Shown piece by piece: positions 12,687 through 22,059 of a stretch of DNA of 32,662 nucleotides. Both the position numbers and the translations under genes were made by a program. Numbering within the stretch: position 1 is the stretch's first letter; every line of letters starts with the position of its first letter. The notes beneath the pieces were generated by a model, which was not told where the DNA came from, made no database searches, and was given only the letters and a program-made list of their open reading frames with translations. Origin of the DNA: Clostridiales bacterium (GTDB lineage Bacteria > Bacillota > Clostridia > Lachnospirales > Lachnospiraceae); NCBI GenBank assembly GCA_021202015.1, contig JAJQDV010000043.1, positions 1 through 32,662 of the forward strand, in the 5' to 3' direction.

Positions 12687-12747
12687 ATAAATTTGCCGTC
12701 TGCCGGACAGCAACTGCACAGGTGGAATAGATTTGCCGTCTGCCGGA
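12686..12747 (+). repeat. 22-base direct repeat after the HD-domain gene
   Basis: AATAAATTTGCCGTCTGCCG plus GA (12686-12707) recurs as AATAGATTTGCCGTCTGCCG plus GA (12726-12747) with one mismatch, at an exact 40-base offset. The first copy overlaps the stop codon of the HD gene. No hairpin-plus-T-run terminator is seen here. Confidence 0.65.
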
Positions 12748-12804
12748 AAACGGGAATGCTTCCGGGTGTTCCGCATAGGATATAAAAAAACCGTAAGGCT
12801 TTTT

Positions 12805-14550
12805 ATGGAAAACGAAAAACTCGATAACCTTTTAAATCTTGCGCTGGAAGCGACGGAGGAGGAACGGGAGAAATCAGAGGAGCTGAACACCGGATATCAT
12901 GCCGCGGATAAATCCTGGCAGCTGATCGTGAAAACTTCCGGCAGTATCGAAGCGCTGTCGGAAATCCATCCGGACATGGAAATCCATGCGCTGCTGAACG
13001 GATATGCTGTTTTAAGGGTTCCGCAGGATCTGATCGCGGAGCTCTCTCAGAGACCGGAAATTGAATATATTGAAATGCCGAAGCGCCTGTTCTTCGCCGT
13101 AAACGAAGGCAGGCGCGTTTCCTGTGTCAATTTTCTGCAGCAGCCGGGGGCGGCGGGCGGAGCTTGGGAGGGCGGCGTCCCTCCGCTGTACGGTACCGGT
13201 GTCCTTACGGCCGTGATCGACTCCGGCATCGACTATGCTCATCCCGATTTTCGAAACGCAGACGGGACGACAAGGATCGTGGAGCTGTGGGATCAGACGA
13301 CCGGCGAGGTTTACGACAGCGCCCGGATCAATGAGGCGCTGGCACAGCCGACGGAAAGCGAACGCTACCGGATCGTCCCGAGCCGCGACATGAGCGGACA
13401 CGGGACACATGTGGCCGGCATCTGCGCCGGAAACGGCCGCGCGTCCGGCGGACTTTACCGCGGCGTCGCGCCGGAGTCGCCGCTTCTCATTGTAAAAATG
13501 GGAAACGCGGATCCGGACGGTTTTCCGCGGACGACGGAACTGATGCTCGCAGTGGATTATGTGCTGCGAAAAGCGAGGGCGCTCGCGTTGCCGACAGCTG
13601 TCAACATAAGCTTCGGCAATAATTACGGCTCCCATAAGGGTACGTCCCTGCCGGAGACATATTTGAACGGGGTTTCCTCTTTCTGGAAATCTGTCATTGT
13701 GACCGGAACCGGAAACGAAGGGGCGTCCGGAATCCATACATCCGGATTCCTGTCCGATGCCCCGGGCGCCGTGAACGCGGCGGAAATCTCCTTTTCCGTG
13801 GGCGAATATGAGCCCGCTCTTAATCTGCAGCTCTGGAAATCCTATGAGGATCAGTTTGAAATCGAGCTGCGGGATCCGCGGGGAAACCGGATCGGCCCGC
13901 TTTTGCCCGACCGCCGGACGCAGCGTTTTCAGGCTGCGGGGACGGAGCTTCTGATTTATTACGGAGAACCGCGTCCCTACAGTGCCGACCAGGAGATCTA
14001 TATTGATTTTATTCCGAACGGTTCCTATATTGATGCCGGAATCTGGGAGATATTCCTGACGCCGCAGAAGATTGTCACCGGACGTTATGACCTCTGGTTC
14101 CCCGGACAGTCGGTTCTTTCCGCCGGTACCGGATTCCTGACCCCAGCCGCGGACAATACGATCACCGTTCCGGCCACGGCTGAAAAGGTAATCTCCGTGG
14201 GCGCGTATGACGCGGCCTTTGACAGTTACGCGTCGTTTTCGGGCCGCGGAGCGGGATTTCCTTTATCACCGGCAAAACCGGACCTGGCGGCGCCGGGCGT
14301 CGGCGTAGTCTCCTGCGCGCCGGGCGGCGGATACACGGCGAAGAGCGGCACCTCCATGGCGGCGCCCTTTGTCACGGGCGCGGCGGCCCTGCTCATGGAA
14401 TGGGGCGTCCGCTTAGGGAACGATCCTTACCTGTACGGAGAAAAAGTAAAGGCGTATCTGCGCCGCGGCGCGAAAAAAATGCCGGGTTTTGCGGAGTATC
14501 CGAATAACCGTGTGGGTTACGGGGCGCTGTGTGTGCGGGATAGTCTGTAA
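12805..14550 (+). CDS. Subtilisin-like serine protease (S8, CspABC-like)
   Basis: This 581-residue S8 protease has the complete triad D139 (AVIDSGIDYAHPDF), H199 (SGHGTHVAGICAG) and S517 (SGTSMAAPFVTG), with the oxyanion region in GTGNEGASG. The roughly 90-residue N-terminal part ends in a segment typical of the propeptide/chaperone region (YAVLRVPQDLIAELSQRPEI). The roughly 200-residue jellyroll-like insertion between the oxyanion Asn and the Ser is the layout of the clostridial CspA/B/C germination proteases. No secretion signal is seen, so it may act in the cell or spore; a spore role is only inferred. The ATG at 12805 (AAGG upstream) is preferred over the longer frame from 12733. Confidence 0.85.
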   Translation: MENEKLDNLLNLALEATEEEREKSEELNTGYHAADKSWQLIVKTSGSIEALSEIHPDMEIHALLNGYAVLRVPQDLIAELSQRPEIEYIEMPKRLFFAVNEGRRVSCVNFLQQPGAAGGAWEGGVPPLYGTGVLTAVIDSGIDYAHPDFRNADGTTRIVELWDQTTGEVYDSARINEALAQPTESERYRIVPSRDMSGHGTHVAGICAGNGRASGGLYRGVAPESPLLIVKMGNADPDGFPRTTELMLAVDYVLRKARALALPTAVNISFGNNYGSHKGTSLPETYLNGVSSFWKSVIVTGTGNEGASGIHTSGFLSDAPGAVNAAEISFSVGEYEPALNLQLWKSYEDQFEIELRDPRGNRIGPLLPDRRTQRFQAAGTELLIYYGEPRPYSADQEIYIDFIPNGSYIDAGIWEIFLTPQKIVTGRYDLWFPGQSVLSAGTGFLTPAADNTITVPATAEKVISVGAYDAAFDSYASFSGRGAGFPLSPAKPDLAAPGVGVVSCAPGGGYTAKSGTSMAAPFVTGAAALLMEWGVRLGNDPYLYGEKVKAYLRRGAKKMPGFAEYPNNRVGYGALCVRDSL

Positions 14551-16922: not shown

Positions 16923-19637
16923 ATGGAAAATAAATCTGAGAAAAAAACGGATCATACATATAAGAAGATAACCGTGGGATTTCTGGCGCATGTCGACGCG
17001 GGGAAGACCACGCTCTCCGAGAGCCTCCTGTACACCGCGGGCAGCATCCGCAGACTCGGAAAGGTGGATACGAAGGACTCCTTTCTGGACACGGATGAGC
17101 GGGAGAGAGCCCGCGGCATCACGATTTTTTCCAAACAGGCAATCCTGACCCGGGGAAATGCGCGGATTTTTCTTCTGGACACGCCGGGACATGTCGATTT
17201 CTCCGCGGAGACGGAGCGCACATTGGGCGTGCTGGATTATGCCGTCCTTCTCATCAGCGGAGCGGACGGGGTGCAGGGCCATACGCGGACCCTGTGGGAG
17301 CTTCTCGAGAGATACGATATCCCTGTTTTTCTGTTTGTCAATAAAATGGATCAGCCGGGGACGGACCGGGAAAGGCTGATGTCGGAGCTGAAAACCCGTC
17401 TCGACAGCTCCTGTGTGGATTTCACGGATATCATTTCCGAACCGATTCTGGAGGATATCGCTTCCTGCGATGAGGAGGCGATGGAGAGGTATTTCGAGAC
17501 GGGAGAGATTCCGGAAGAGCAGATTCGCGACCTGATCTGGAAGCGGCGCCTCTTTCCGTGTTTTTTCGGCTCGGCGCTGAAAATGACGGGCGTGGAGGAG
17601 TTCCTTGACGGATTTGTCCGCTATACGCTGGAGAAAGTCTGGCCGCGGGAGTTCGGAGCGAAGGTTTTTAAGATCACGAGGGATGCGCAGGGGAACCGTC
17701 TGACGCATATGAAGATCACCGGCGGTGTCCTGAGAACCAGAGACGTGCTCACGACGGACGCCGGAACCGATCCCTCGCGGAGGAAGGATGTCCGGGAGGA
17801 GAAGGTCAGCCAGATCCGCGTCTATCACGGAGAGAAGTTCGAGACTCCTTCCGAGGCGCGGGCGGGTGAGATCTGTACGGCCGCCGGTCTGTCGGCGACC
17901 TGGCCGGGGCAGGGGCTCGGTTTTGAGTCCGGAACCGGCGCGCCCGTTCTGGAGCCGGTTCTGTCCAGGCAGATCGTTTTGCCGGAGGGCGTGGACGCCG
18001 GCGTCATGCTGCCGAAGCTGCGCATGCTGGAGGAAGAGCAACCGGAACTGCGCATTGCCTGGGAGGAGCGCCTGCAGGAAATACGGGTGCAGGTGATGGG
18101 CGAGGTACAGATCGAGGTGCTGAGCAGCCTGATCGAGGAGCGCTTCGGGGTGAAGGTCGGTTTCGGGCCGCCGCATATCGTGTACCGCGAGACGATCGCG
18201 GCTCCGGTGGAAGGTGTCGGCCATTTCGAGCCGCTGCGGCATTACGCGGAGGTTCATCTCCTGATGGAACCGCTGCCGGCGGGGAGCGGTCTGAAGTTCG
18301 CGGCGGAATGCAGCGAGGATCTCCTGGATAAAAACTGGCAGCGGCTGATTCTGACGCATCTCGGAGAGCGGACGCACCGCGGCGTCCTGACCGGTTCTGC
18401 GATCACCGATATGAAGATTACCGTGATCGCGGGGCGGGCGCATCAGAAGCACACGGAGGGCGGCGATTTTCGCCAGGCGACGTACCGGGCGGTCCGGCAG
18501 GGGCTGATGGAGGCGGAGAACCGGCTGCTGGAGCCCTTTTATAATTTTCGCCTGGAGATTCCGGAACGGACGGTCGGCAGGGCCATGACGGACATTGAGA
18601 AGATGAACGGCCGCTGCGATCCGCCTTATACGGACGGCGAGGTCTGCGTCCTCACCGGATACGCGCCGGTGTCGACGATGCAGGATTACAGGCGGGAGGT
18701 GAGCGCATACACGAGGGGGTTCGGACGCCTGTCCTTTTCCCTGCGCGGGTATGAGGCCTGCCATAACCCGGACGAAGTCGTGGCGGCGAGAGGATATGAT
18801 CCGGAGGCGGATCCGTTTCATTCCCCGGATTCGGTGTTCTGTTCCCACGGTTCCGGCGTGATCGTGCCCTGGCATGAGGTGAAGAAATACATGCATGTGG
18901 AGAGCCCTCTGGCGCAAAGGGAATCTGCGGATCAGCAGGATGTAAAATCGGCGTCCCGGCCGGAAAAGAGCGCGGAGGATCCCTGGCTCGGTACGGATGA
19001 GATCGATGAGATTCTGGAAAAGGCGTATTTCGCGAACCGCGGAAAGCATTCCGCATCCGGAAAGGGCGTGGTAAAAAGGAGCCGCACCGAGCGCATCGAA
19101 CCGGTGAAAAGATCCTTTCGTCATGAGGAGAAGCAGGGAGAATACCTGCTTGTGGACGGCTACAATGTCATCTTTGCCTGGGAGGAGCTGGCCGGGCTCG
19201 CGCGGGAAGATATGGACGCGGCGCGCGGGAAGCTTCTGGATGAGATGTGCAATTATCAGGGTCTGAAGGGGATGCAGCTGATCGTCGTATTTGACGCCTA
19301 CCGCGTGGCGGGGCATCAGACCGAGATCCTGGATTACCACAATATCCATGTGGTCTTTACGAAGGAGGCAGAGACCGCGGACCAGTATATTGAGAAATTT
19401 GCCCATACGAACGCGAAAAAATACCGGGTGACCGTGGCGACGTCCGACGGTCTGGAGCAGATCATCATCCGGGGAGAAGGATGCCGACTCCTGTCCGCGC
19501 GTGACCTGCGGGCGGAGATCGAAGAGATGAAGCGTGAGATCCGGTCGGGTTACACGGAAGGGGCGGCTCCCCGGGGGAACGGGGAATTCAGAAAGGCGGT
19601 GGAGTCGGCGCTCCCGTCGAAACCGGCGAAAGAATAA
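16923..19637 (+). CDS. TetM/EF-G-like translation GTPase fused to a YacP/Rae1-type NYN nuclease domain
   Basis: This is a 904-residue fusion. Residues 1 to about 665 match ribosomal-protection/EF-G-like GTPases: G1 AHVDAGKTTLSESLL, G2 RGITI, G3 DTPGHVDF, G4 NKMD, then domains II-V ending SFSLRGYEACHN and HEVKKYMHV. A charged linker follows. Residues 740-880 form a NYN domain of the YacP/Rae1 type, with the acidic residues kept: D745 (LLVDGYNVI), D791 (VVFDAYRV), E815/E817 and D820 (TKEAETADQYIEK), D842 (ATSDGLEQ). Rae1 in Bacillus cleaves mRNA in the ribosomal A site, and TetM-like factors enter the same site. A GTPase-delivered mRNA cleavage factor is therefore a sound inference. Tetracycline resistance should not be assumed. 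A weak AGG precedes the ATG. lon follows after 115 bases. Confidence 0.88.
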   Translation: MENKSEKKTDHTYKKITVGFLAHVDAGKTTLSESLLYTAGSIRRLGKVDTKDSFLDTDERERARGITIFSKQAILTRGNARIFLLDTPGHVDFSAETERTLGVLDYAVLLISGADGVQGHTRTLWELLERYDIPVFLFVNKMDQPGTDRERLMSELKTRLDSSCVDFTDIISEPILEDIASCDEEAMERYFETGEIPEEQIRDLIWKRRLFPCFFGSALKMTGVEEFLDGFVRYTLEKVWPREFGAKVFKITRDAQGNRLTHMKITGGVLRTRDVLTTDAGTDPSRRKDVREEKVSQIRVYHGEKFETPSEARAGEICTAAGLSATWPGQGLGFESGTGAPVLEPVLSRQIVLPEGVDAGVMLPKLRMLEEEQPELRIAWEERLQEIRVQVMGEVQIEVLSSLIEERFGVKVGFGPPHIVYRETIAAPVEGVGHFEPLRHYAEVHLLMEPLPAGSGLKFAAECSEDLLDKNWQRLILTHLGERTHRGVLTGSAITDMKITVIAGRAHQKHTEGGDFRQATYRAVRQGLMEAENRLLEPFYNFRLEIPERTVGRAMTDIEKMNGRCDPPYTDGEVCVLTGYAPVSTMQDYRREVSAYTRGFGRLSFSLRGYEACHNPDEVVAARGYDPEADPFHSPDSVFCSHGSGVIVPWHEVKKYMHVESPLAQRESADQQDVKSASRPEKSAEDPWLGTDEIDEILEKAYFANRGKHSASGKGVVKRSRTERIEPVKRSFRHEEKQGEYLLVDGYNVIFAWEELAGLAREDMDAARGKLLDEMCNYQGLKGMQLIVVFDAYRVAGHQTEILDYHNIHVVFTKEAETADQYIEKFAHTNAKKYRVTVATSDGLEQIIIRGEGCRLLSARDLRAEIEEMKREIRSGYTEGAAPRGNGEFRKAVESALPSKPAKE

Positions 19638-19673: not shown

Positions 19674-19702
19674 TTGCAAAAAGACAGAAAGTGGTTTATG
19701 AT
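19674..19702 (+). promoter_or_regulatory. lon promoter
   Basis: TTGCAA (19674-19679), a 17-base spacer and TATGAT (19697-19702) predict transcription from about 19709, at the first base of the CIRCE element. Confidence 0.7.
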
Positions 19703-19709
19703 ACCCATA

Positions 19710-19736
19710 TTAGCACTCAGGAGAATAGACTGCTAA
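19710..19736 (+). promoter_or_regulatory. CIRCE element (HrcA operator) upstream of lon
   Basis: TTAGCACTC (19710-19718), nine bases, GACTGCTAA (19728-19736). The CIRCE consensus is TTAGCACTC-N9-GAGTGCTAA, so only one position differs. It overlaps the predicted transcription start, the right place for repression by HrcA with release on heat shock. Confidence 0.88.
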
Positions 19737-19752
19737 CAAACAGGAGGGACAA

Positions 19753-22059
19753 ATGATAGTATTACCGATTTATGATATGTTGCTTTTGCCAGGCGTTAAT
19801 TTTTATTTTCGTAAGGATGTGCTTTCCTCCATGCCGGTGAAGGAGTTTCCGGATGGAGAGGATGTCCTGTTCCTGGTTCAGAACACAGACAAGAAAAAAT
19901 CAGAGCTGCAGCCTCAGGATTTTTATGAGAAAGGCCTGATCGGAAAGGTCGACAGTGTCGACGACGAGGGGAATGTCAGCATCCGCGTGACGGACCGTGT
20001 CCGCATTTCCGATATAGAAAATGAGGGGGACGTTTTTTCCGCTTCCGGGAGCATCTGCCCGCTGGTGGAGGATATTTCCGAGGAGGAACGGCGGGAGAAG
20101 TATCAGGAGACGCAGAGAAGCCTGCTCCGGTTCGTTCAGCATTTTCAGTGGGGGATCGTGGCGCGCACCTTTATCCAGCACTGGCACTCGCTTTCCGAGA
20201 TGATCTGTGCGATTTCCGCTTATATGAATCTGACGCCGGAAGATAAATACGAGATTCTTGCGACGGATTCACACCGGGAACGGACCGATCTGATCCAGAA
20301 TTCCATTTTTGAGTTTATTGAGATGGTGAAGATCAGCGGGGAGGCGGAGCATGCCCAGCGCGAGACGCATGAGAGGGCCTACCGCGAGACGGCGCTGAAA
20401 AAGCAGATCTCTATCCTGGAGCAGGAGCTGGACGAGATGCACCCGGAGAATATTTCCGACGTGCGGAAGTTTGAAAAGAAGATCGACGAGGCGGGGATGA
20501 ATCCGGAGGCAGAGGCGGAGGCGAGAAAGGTCTTAAACCGCATGAAACAGGAGGGGAAGGACAGCCATGAGTACGGCATGCTCTACGATTATCTGGATTT
20601 TGTCACGACCCTCTCGTGGAAGAAGGCGGAGCCTGAGCCGATCGACCTGCGGGAAGCGGAGGATATCCTGAATGAGGATCACTACGGGCTCGATAAGGTC
20701 AAGGACCGGATCATACAGCAGATCGCCGTGATGGCGCTGAAAAAGCAGCAGTCCGGTTCCATCCTTTTGTTTGTGGGCGCTCCGGGTACCGGCAAGACGA
20801 GTATCGGACAGAGCATCGCAAAGGCGCTCCACCGCGAATATGTCCGGATCAGCCTGGGCGGCATCCGGGATGAGGCGGAGATCCGGGGACACCGCAGGAC
20901 CTACATAGGCGCCATGCCGGGGCGGATCATGGAGGGCATGAAGCGCAGCGGCGCTTCGAATCCGGTCATTGTCCTCGACGAGGTCGACAAGCTGGCGAAC
21001 GAGTACCACGGCGACCCGGCCAGCGCCCTGCTGGAGGTGCTGGATCCGGAACAGAATTTCAGCTTTACCGATCATTATATGAATGTCCCCTATGACCTCT
21101 CCGACGTGCTGTTCGTCTGCACGGCCAACACGGCGGACACCATACCGGAGCCGCTTTTAAACCGTATGGAGATGATCCAGTTCCCCGGCTACACGGCGGT
21201 GGAAAAGTTCCAGATCGCGAAGAAGCACCTGCTCCCGAAGGCGATGGAGAGCATGGGCATTAAGAAATCCTCTCTGAAGGTGACGGACGACGCGCTGCGG
21301 ATGATCATCAGCGAGTATACGGCCGAGTCCGGCGTGCGCGGACTGAAAAAACAGATGGATATCCTTTGCCGCCACGCGGCGGTGAAGCTGGTCCGCGGCG
21401 ACCAGAAGAGCATCACGGTCAATGTAAAGAGAATACGGGATTATCTGGACGGCAGAGGCATCCGCCACGATTCGCGGATGGAGCATGCGCTTCCCGGTGT
21501 GGTGACCGGTCTGGCCTGGACGCAGGCGGGCGGCGATATTCTGTTTATCGAGACCTCTGTCACGGAGGGCAGCGGGAAACTCAATGTGACCGGACAGCTC
21601 GGGGATGTGATGAAGGAGTCCGTCCAGATCGCGCTGACGCTCACCCGGTCCATGTTCCCGGAGGAGACTCGGGAATGGGAGAAGAAAAACATCCATGTGC
21701 ATGTCCCCGCGGGCGCTGTCCCGAAGGACGGTCCCTCCGCGGGCGTCACGATCACGACGGCGCTGGTGTCCCTGGCACTGCAGCGGCCGGTGCCGACCGA
21801 TATCGCCATGACGGGCGAGATATCCCTGCGCGGCGGCGTGATGCCGATCGGCGGCCTGCCGGAGAAGCTGATGGCGGCGCAGCGCGCCGGACTGAAGCGG
21901 ATCTTTATCCCGTATGAAAATGTCGAGGATCTGGAGGACGTCGCGGGGGAGGTAAAGGATGATCTGGAGATTATTCCGGTAAAACGCGTGGAGGATGTGC
22001 TTGAGGCCGCGGGTTTGATTGGAGAGGAAACGGAGGCTGAAAAGGCGGATGTGGCCTGA
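19753..22059 (+). CDS. lon: ATP-dependent protease Lon (LonA)
   Basis: Lon is a homo-oligomeric cytosolic AAA+ protease that removes misfolded and regulatory proteins. The 768 residues contain, in order, an N-terminal LAN domain (VLPIYDMLLLPGV to about 185), a helical linker rich in Glu/Lys, an AAA module with Walker A G342-APGTGKT and Walker B VIVLDEVDKL, and a Lon protease domain with the Ser-Lys dyad S662 (PKDGPSAGVT) and K705 (IGGLPEKL). The dyad spacing of 43 residues equals that of E. coli Lon. AGGAGGG at 19742-19748 precedes the ATG by 4 bases. The CIRCE element upstream places it in the heat-shock regulon. It is monocistronic, with a terminator directly after. Confidence 0.97.
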   Translation: MIVLPIYDMLLLPGVNFYFRKDVLSSMPVKEFPDGEDVLFLVQNTDKKKSELQPQDFYEKGLIGKVDSVDDEGNVSIRVTDRVRISDIENEGDVFSASGSICPLVEDISEEERREKYQETQRSLLRFVQHFQWGIVARTFIQHWHSLSEMICAISAYMNLTPEDKYEILATDSHRERTDLIQNSIFEFIEMVKISGEAEHAQRETHERAYRETALKKQISILEQELDEMHPENISDVRKFEKKIDEAGMNPEAEAEARKVLNRMKQEGKDSHEYGMLYDYLDFVTTLSWKKAEPEPIDLREAEDILNEDHYGLDKVKDRIIQQIAVMALKKQQSGSILLFVGAPGTGKTSIGQSIAKALHREYVRISLGGIRDEAEIRGHRRTYIGAMPGRIMEGMKRSGASNPVIVLDEVDKLANEYHGDPASALLEVLDPEQNFSFTDHYMNVPYDLSDVLFVCTANTADTIPEPLLNRMEMIQFPGYTAVEKFQIAKKHLLPKAMESMGIKKSSLKVTDDALRMIISEYTAESGVRGLKKQMDILCRHAAVKLVRGDQKSITVNVKRIRDYLDGRGIRHDSRMEHALPGVVTGLAWTQAGGDILFIETSVTEGSGKLNVTGQLGDVMKESVQIALTLTRSMFPEETREWEKKNIHVHVPAGAVPKDGPSAGVTITTALVSLALQRPVPTDIAMTGEISLRGGVMPIGGLPEKLMAAQRAGLKRIFIPYENVEDLEDVAGEVKDDLEIIPVKRVEDVLEAAGLIGEETEAEKADVA

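Follow-up and report, generated by a model that had tools for sequence, protein, structure and literature searches.

In the portions of the reports available to us, Bacillus subtilis Rae1 (YacP) is an A-site endonuclease, with paused or stalled ribosomes as its proposed place of action (PMC6613710, PMC12320835, PMC10100781). A YacP-like NYN domain combined with a 'Tet' GTPase has been recorded in ten Clostridiales by Atkinson 2015, which, in the part available to us, filed these proteins as Tet, guessed at a ribonuclease (RNase)-based resistance and suggested testing their ability to cut ribosomal RNA (rRNA) (PMC4342817). Here we analysed a window of 32,662 nucleotides (contig JAJQDV010000043.1 of assembly GCA_021202015.1, a Clostridiales bacterium of the Lachnospiraceae; 'the window' means this whole stretch), in which a gene at 16923–19637 on the (+) strand encodes the same combination. 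The protein thus belongs to the 2015 set by architecture, and differs from what the available part of that report describes in that its GTPase falls outside the Tet proteins and in that the fusion occurs in 104 of 293 sampled genomes rather than in ten species. The initial annotation of the window overstated the novelty of the fusion: the architecture was published in 2015 and was therefore already known, and what is new here is the separation from Tet, the extent of the family and the apparent replacement of the separate rae1 gene. Among the records listed by searches of titles and abstract openings in open-licence PubMed Central, nothing later on the fusion was found, and the available part of PMC1780047 holds nothing on it.

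We build on four observations: the two-part architecture, active sites that are conserved in each half, the grouping of the fused GTPases in one clade and the absence of rae1 from its usual place. Judged from sequence, the protein probably serves translation quality control and not tetracycline resistance, and we lean towards reading it as a relocated, GTPase-borne Rae1 that would cut mRNA on stalled ribosomes, a reading to which we give somewhat better than even credence.

A translational GTPase and a YacP/Rae1 domain share one reading frame

The open reading frame (ORF) at 16923–19637 is intact and encodes 904 amino acids (aa), an EF-G/TetM-type GTPase with a C-terminal YacP/Rae1 NYN domain. 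The initial annotation had proposed both parts in one frame, and a profile search of the C-terminal region bore this out, NYN_YacP (PF05991) matching residues 742–881 with E 7.7e-49 and 166.3 bits against a curated cut-off of 24.6. Pfam matches above cut-off were also obtained for GTP_EFTU (residues 16–234), EFG_IV (417–531) and EFG_C (534–615). Compared with solved chains, the NYN part matched 5mq8 and 5mq9, both YacP, at E 1.9e-26, and these were the sole matches at E ≤0.01. The protein has the G1, switch I, G3 and G4 motifs and the EF-G domain order of the translational GTPase superfamily. In the VIA-align alignment listing for the structure model, EF-G chains match residues 8–637; the list is filled by GTPase chains and barely covers the NYN part.

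The G domain (16968–17624) carries AHVDAGKTT, RGITI, DTPGHVDF and NKMD, which include every GTPase motif quoted initially. EF-G domains II and III (residues 244–325 and 344–415; 17652–18167) score just below their curated Pfam cut-offs. Next comes domain IV (18171–18515), which in EF-G and TetM reaches into the decoding site; its tip at residues 507–517 (18441–18473) reads HQKHTEGGDFR. Domain V (18522–18767) follows. A family-specific extension at residues 606–660 (18738–18902), with C613 and C640 in all 98 aligned fusion proteins, also occurs in 19 unfused relatives and was not seen in the aligned Tet and EF-G proteins. The linker that follows (residues 661–739; 18903–19139) is predicted to be flexible, with predicted local distance difference test (pLDDT) values below 50 at 673–690 and 702–735. 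Between these lies a short helix at 691–702, in which E693 and I697 are present in 95 of the 98 proteins, and the last 40 linker residues have a mean net charge of +6. The predicted nuclease domain occupies 19146–19565. Counted along the alignment, its D745 (19155–19157) pairs with D7 of the 5mq9 chain, and D820, the aspartate of the motif TADxxIE (D820 to E824, 19380–19394), pairs with D81; we take D7 and D81 of Rae1 to be catalytic. D791 (19293–19295) and D842 (19446–19448) are the other conserved aspartates. An ORF of 946 aa runs antisense to the fusion gene.

Both halves are conserved and under purifying selection

Alignments of fusion relatives cover roughly residues 14–870 in 36 further genomes, at 45–60% identity to the window protein, and at 61 loci of a second collection, at 51–74%; because these relatives span both parts, the fusion is no assembly accident. 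(Labels with G denote sampled genomes and those with L the loci or sequences compared.) The 36 loci were hand-picked from fusion genomes for spread over families, and the 61 are the best 80 less 17 that were incomplete or had no usable upstream ATG and less L128 and L191, which carry long extra sequence. Among the resulting 98 rows, 96 sequences are distinct (L179 equals L051, and L127 equals L032).

Invariant across the 98 rows are, in the GTPase, H23, D25, K28, T29, G65–T67, D86, G89, H90, N140, K141 and D143; at the domain IV tip, H507, H510, T511 and G513–R517; and, in the nuclease, D745, N748, D791, D820, S841 and D842. The acidic positions named in the initial annotation therefore hold up in part: D745, D791 and D842 are invariant and E815 is kept in 92 rows, but E817 is variable (73 E, 25 Q), and D820 and E824 (97 rows) had been overlooked. 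All 26 standalone NYN sequences share the equivalents of D745, D791, D820, D842 and E824. In close pairs both domains are under purifying selection, the ratio of non-synonymous to synonymous substitution rates (dN/dS) being 0.12 for the GTPase and 0.10 for the NYN domain between L063 and L035, and 0.16 and 0.17 between the window gene and L113, with higher values for the linker (0.36 and 0.28, respectively); in several pairs the synonymous sites had reached saturation, which left one part or another without a value. One fusion gene (L090, in G190) has a single in-frame TAG in its GTPase half with the remaining matched frame open, which may be a sequencing error, decay or recoding.

The GTPase belongs beside the Tet proteins

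The initial annotation called the GTPase half TetM-like and expected that automated pipelines would probably label it as tetracycline resistance. Three measures set it apart from Tet. Against the NCBIfam profile tet_protect (NF012153; cut-off 775 bits) four fused proteins scored 398–448, the window protein among them with 405.8, and three unfused relatives 401–458, all below even two distant Tet relatives, a Tet(B(P))-like protein with 675 and Otr(A) with 688, which themselves fall under the cut-off that Tet(M) passes with 876. The second measure is the tip of domain IV. Loop 3 there is the tetracycline-displacing tip: all five Tet rows have SPVST or GPLST in this loop, whereas the six fused and 19 unfused rows aligned read H.KHT.GGDFR; loop 1 likewise reads GH(F/Y)EPL.HYAEV in family rows versus VPPNPFWAS in TetM/O/W. 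Third, in a tree of 63 GTPase parts, 37 fused rows formed one clade (bootstrap 93, Shimodaira–Hasegawa-like approximate likelihood ratio test (SH-aLRT) 86; recovered in 94% of 200 bootstrap trees) with the 19 unfused rows as its sister (97/87), while the 56 family rows grouped separately (100/99) from five Tet rows outside (100/99). The bootstrap of this tree had not quite settled, the fused clade is short of the 95/80 mark, Otr(A) sits on a long branch, only five Tet rows were included and L090 was left out. On score, tip motif and tree placement, we rejected membership in TetM or Tet more widely: by these sequence measures the GTPase is a lineage beside Tet, not a Tet branch. With TetM/TetO it shares domain order over the first 615 residues and the G-domain motifs; it differs from them in sequence (about 29% identity), in having no Tet tip motif, and in its extension and nuclease.

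Nor is the protein an EF-G by score, since TIGR00484 gave 281.5 bits against a cut-off of 659.4. It resembles EF-G in domain order, and the host genome's EF-G-like gene has a histidine that aligns with H507 at the domain IV tip; this separate gene adjoins an EF-Tu-like one (both labels assigned in this analysis).

These results bear on whether the protein is a ribosomal protection protein against tetracycline to which an RNase has been added, a variant form of resistance of the kind guessed at in 2015. Among the tree rows no group of known function lies nearer than Tet, such proteins were grouped with Tet in the available part of the 2015 report (PMC4342817), and an Agathobacter rectalis record (L110) labels its copy as TetM/TetW/TetO/TetS family resistance. 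The predicted mislabelling thus occurs, though not throughout: a Monoglobus record (L111) calls its copy a 'translation factor GTPase family protein'. Besides the scores and the tip, resistance is opposed by how little sign of mobility there is: among 1363 matching plasmid records only two cover at least 80% of the query, and the two fusion records looked at (L110 and L111, from the plasmid collection) are large and typed as non-mobilizable. Moreover, of 13 genomes sampled from the host's own family, 12 carry the fused form. We consider a resistance function very improbable. If the protein is instead a translation quality-control enzyme, a widespread and sometimes mislabelled protein would have to be taken out of the resistance genes, which matters for resistome counts.

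The unfused relatives (L072–L089, L091 and L109) are about 620–725 aa long and end right after the extension motif, and appear to be a predicted translation-GTPase group beside Tet; were this so, they would be a second group of predicted translation factors now filed near Tet. A more distant one, L109 from a Limosilactobacillus fermentum record, keeps just HT.GGDFR of the tip motif, and its match is in two pieces.

The fusion is common in Clostridia

To survey the class, 293 genomes drawn from it were searched with NYN_YacP and with A2, a profile built from the family-specific residues 590–668. NYN_YacP matched in 192 genomes and A2 in 125, and the fusion is common, with a fused gene in 104. 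A gene was counted as fused if the A2 match lay in an open frame of 840 aa or more, a length proxy satisfied in 96 genomes, each of which has an NYN match; the count also takes in eight short-frame cases, of which six have both matches on one contig in frames of equal length, one (G235) is split between frames, and one (G071) has no listed place for its NYN match. A further 88 genomes have NYN without the fusion, 14 of them together with an unfused GTPase match, which in G206 is a mere remnant. This remnant of the extension (G206:C2:56001-56168) has two in-frame stops and looks like a decayed copy; that genome has a standalone NYN gene. All 13 sampled genomes of the host's family have the GTPase, unfused in one (G209) with a standalone NYN elsewhere.

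At the level of the phylum, 21 of 299 genomes match, with 18 frames of 857–913 aa and three of about 650 aa, NYN being left out of this count. A scan of genome_contigs with A3 matched at least 599 stretches, of which the best 80 are mostly Lachnospiraceae and also include Desulfosporosinus, Anaerovorax, Fusibacter and Clostridium; the nearest among the matches listed is L113, from a Lachnospiraceae metagenome-assembled genome, with 79% over the query stretch. The best match in the phage collection (L112; MT835514.1, an unverified 'Bacteriophage sp.' scaffold) is a complete fusion of 869 aa between genes for a MraW-type methylase and a class I tRNA synthetase. We rejected a phage setting for it, as these flanks are bacterial housekeeping-type genes and the record probably holds bacterial DNA.

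The rlmB-sigH sites found in fusion genomes lack rae1

Standalone NYN genes usually lie in the order mrnC-rlmB-rae1-sigH, and the standalone NYN adjoins a SpoU methylase gene also in G140, G146, G180, G230 and G284. We therefore looked at 20 SpoU-methylase loci from 17 fusion genomes. At all ten loci (ten genomes) where both rlmB and sigH were found, there is no NYN between them, and the gap is 18–248 bases in nine and 604 bases in one (L198); in three of three standalone comparison loci, NYN fills a gap of 550–711 bases. Of the other ten loci, four have RlmB but no SigH and six a distant paralogue, and no NYN match was found across all 20. In the host genome (L193), which is among the ten with both genes, the sigH match follows that of rlmB after 159 bases, with no single-domain rae1 there, nor does this genome (91% complete) hold a second NYN_YacP match. 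Thus rae1 no longer occurs as a separate gene at its usual place, the domain being carried on the GTPase, and the fusion seems to stand in for that gene. The window protein shares with B. subtilis Rae1 (5mq8, 5mq9) the NYN family and the conserved acids, and differs in that Rae1 is a single domain encoded after rlmB (ten standalone NYN sequences are 167–192 aa long), whereas here the domain ends a 904-aa GTPase at another locus.

That the fused GTPases are one clade makes a single fusion event likely. In a tree of NYN domains, 38 fused domains group with two standalone sequences from the host's own family and order (L069 and L070; SH-aLRT 99), which lie at the base, L069 weakly placed, in a tree with about half of its inner forks unresolved and from which L019, a copy of L069, was left out. 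We do not favour fission as the source of these two sequences: they branch basally, no linker motif is visible in them by eye, and L070 sits in the order mrnC-rlmB-NYN-sigH. The fused domains also differ from standalone NYN at the C-terminus. An LEK(L/I/W)R-type tail is present in 20 of 26 standalone and none of 96 fused sequences, or in 22 and 13, respectively, by a relaxed pattern, both patterns having been chosen after inspection of the data. It is as if docking had passed to the GTPase.

How the fusion may act on the ribosome

EF-G-type GTPases enter the A site, and in eukaryotes a comparable task is shared by an Hbs1-type GTPase and a separate nuclease. For a relocated Rae1 we infer ribosome binding, an order of steps, mRNA as the substrate and stalling as the trigger. 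The EF-G-like factor in its GTP form would bind the factor site of a paused ribosome, and domain IV with its KHTEGGDFR tip would enter an A site that is empty or blocked. Held by the flexible basic linker of about 80 residues that leaves the end of domain V, the NYN domain would then cleave the mRNA at the A site or slightly in front of it, and the resulting end could be cleared by mRNA decay and by trans-translation, the ordinary rescue route. As domain IV and Rae1 should not share the A site, the steps would be sequential, with cutting after GTP hydrolysis and withdrawal of the tip, or the cut would fall at the mRNA entry side. The idea of mRNA surveillance gains strength from the absence of a separate rae1 at the usual site. 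We tentatively go further and propose a one-chain, GTP-gated surveillance nuclease, in which the GTPase senses a ribosome unable to accept tRNA and licenses the tethered nuclease, and which would be the usual form of Rae1 in much of Clostridia; this is plausible, yet to our minds short of an even chance. If true, it would offer a clean system for studying how cleavage of mRNA on the ribosome is gated by a translation GTPase.

The substrate might also be rRNA, the protein serving as a ribosome-turnover or rRNA-maturation factor whose GTPase recognises defective ribosomes or subunits. A disordered linker allows a wide reach and the charge of its last 40 residues fits with this, as does the proposal of rRNA RNase testing in the available part of Atkinson 2015 (PMC4342817). 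We nonetheless find it quite unlikely, as the domain keeps the residues common to standalone Rae1, an A-site mRNA endonuclease in the available portions of two reports (PMC10100781, PMC12320835), and as presence of the fusion goes with absence of a separate rae1 from its place.

Several observations weigh against a relocated Rae1. The fusion, the unfused GTPase and NYN are all lacking in 94 of the 293 class genomes, which makes the function dispensable at class level. Seven genomes (one, G203, with a short frame) have an unfused GTPase with no NYN match, so the GTPase must serve some use that needs no nuclease. Four of the 104 fusion genomes (G120, G174, G208 and G284) have a second NYN match, and the fused domains are not one clade by themselves in the NYN tree. 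The structure model (predicted template modelling score (pTM) 0.63) gives the nuclease no fixed placement relative to the GTPase. No conserved neighbours emerged from 117 fusion loci with flanks of at most 5 kb, shorter at contig ends, where the top flanking cluster occurred at 25 loci, on both sides and both strands. Finally, an operon partnership of unfused GTPase and standalone NYN was looked for and rejected: in all 13 genomes that have an unfused GTPase of intact appearance as well as a standalone NYN, the genes are on different contigs or far apart, which lends no support to a prior partnership. As to the second NYN copies, that of G284 adjoins a SpoU methylase gene, and in G120 and G174 there is none at the rlmB-sigH site.

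The seven genomes in particular show that the GTPase is valuable alone, which is the main argument for a loose tether: a GTPase with an unrelated job of its own, such as back-up or stress translocation, with the Rae1 domain riding near ribosomes and cutting without GTP gating. The unfused relatives share the same tip and extension, and the disordered linker would suit such an arrangement. A single fused clade in over a third of the sampled genomes, the loss of the separate gene and a conserved linker helix suggest more than convenience, and we regard the loose tether as unlikely, though still to be reckoned with.

Gene neighbourhood

The initial annotation drew a quality-control context from the adjacent lon gene and its heat-shock control. 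A controlling inverted repeat of chaperone expression (CIRCE) does lie at 19710–19736, with one mismatch and no matches in 100 shuffles, downstream of the fusion stop and upstream of lon (19753–22059). It is preceded by a promoter-like consensus match at 19674–19702, which is weak (four in the stretch versus 1.4 expected). When the window lon was searched in 119 fusion-family loci with flanks of varying length, a single match was found, at L045, about 4.4 kb from the fusion. With the CIRCE on the lon side of the fusion stop and the adjacency not conserved, we rejected a heat-shock link through lon and the argument built on it falls. The window amylase had no match at E 1e-20 in the same 119 loci, and scans of the window gave neither a tRNA nor an Rfam match at gathering level. 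A subtilase with a CspB-type prodomain (germination-protease-like) lies at 12733–14550, two genes upstream of the fusion, and adjoins the alpha-amylase-type gene.

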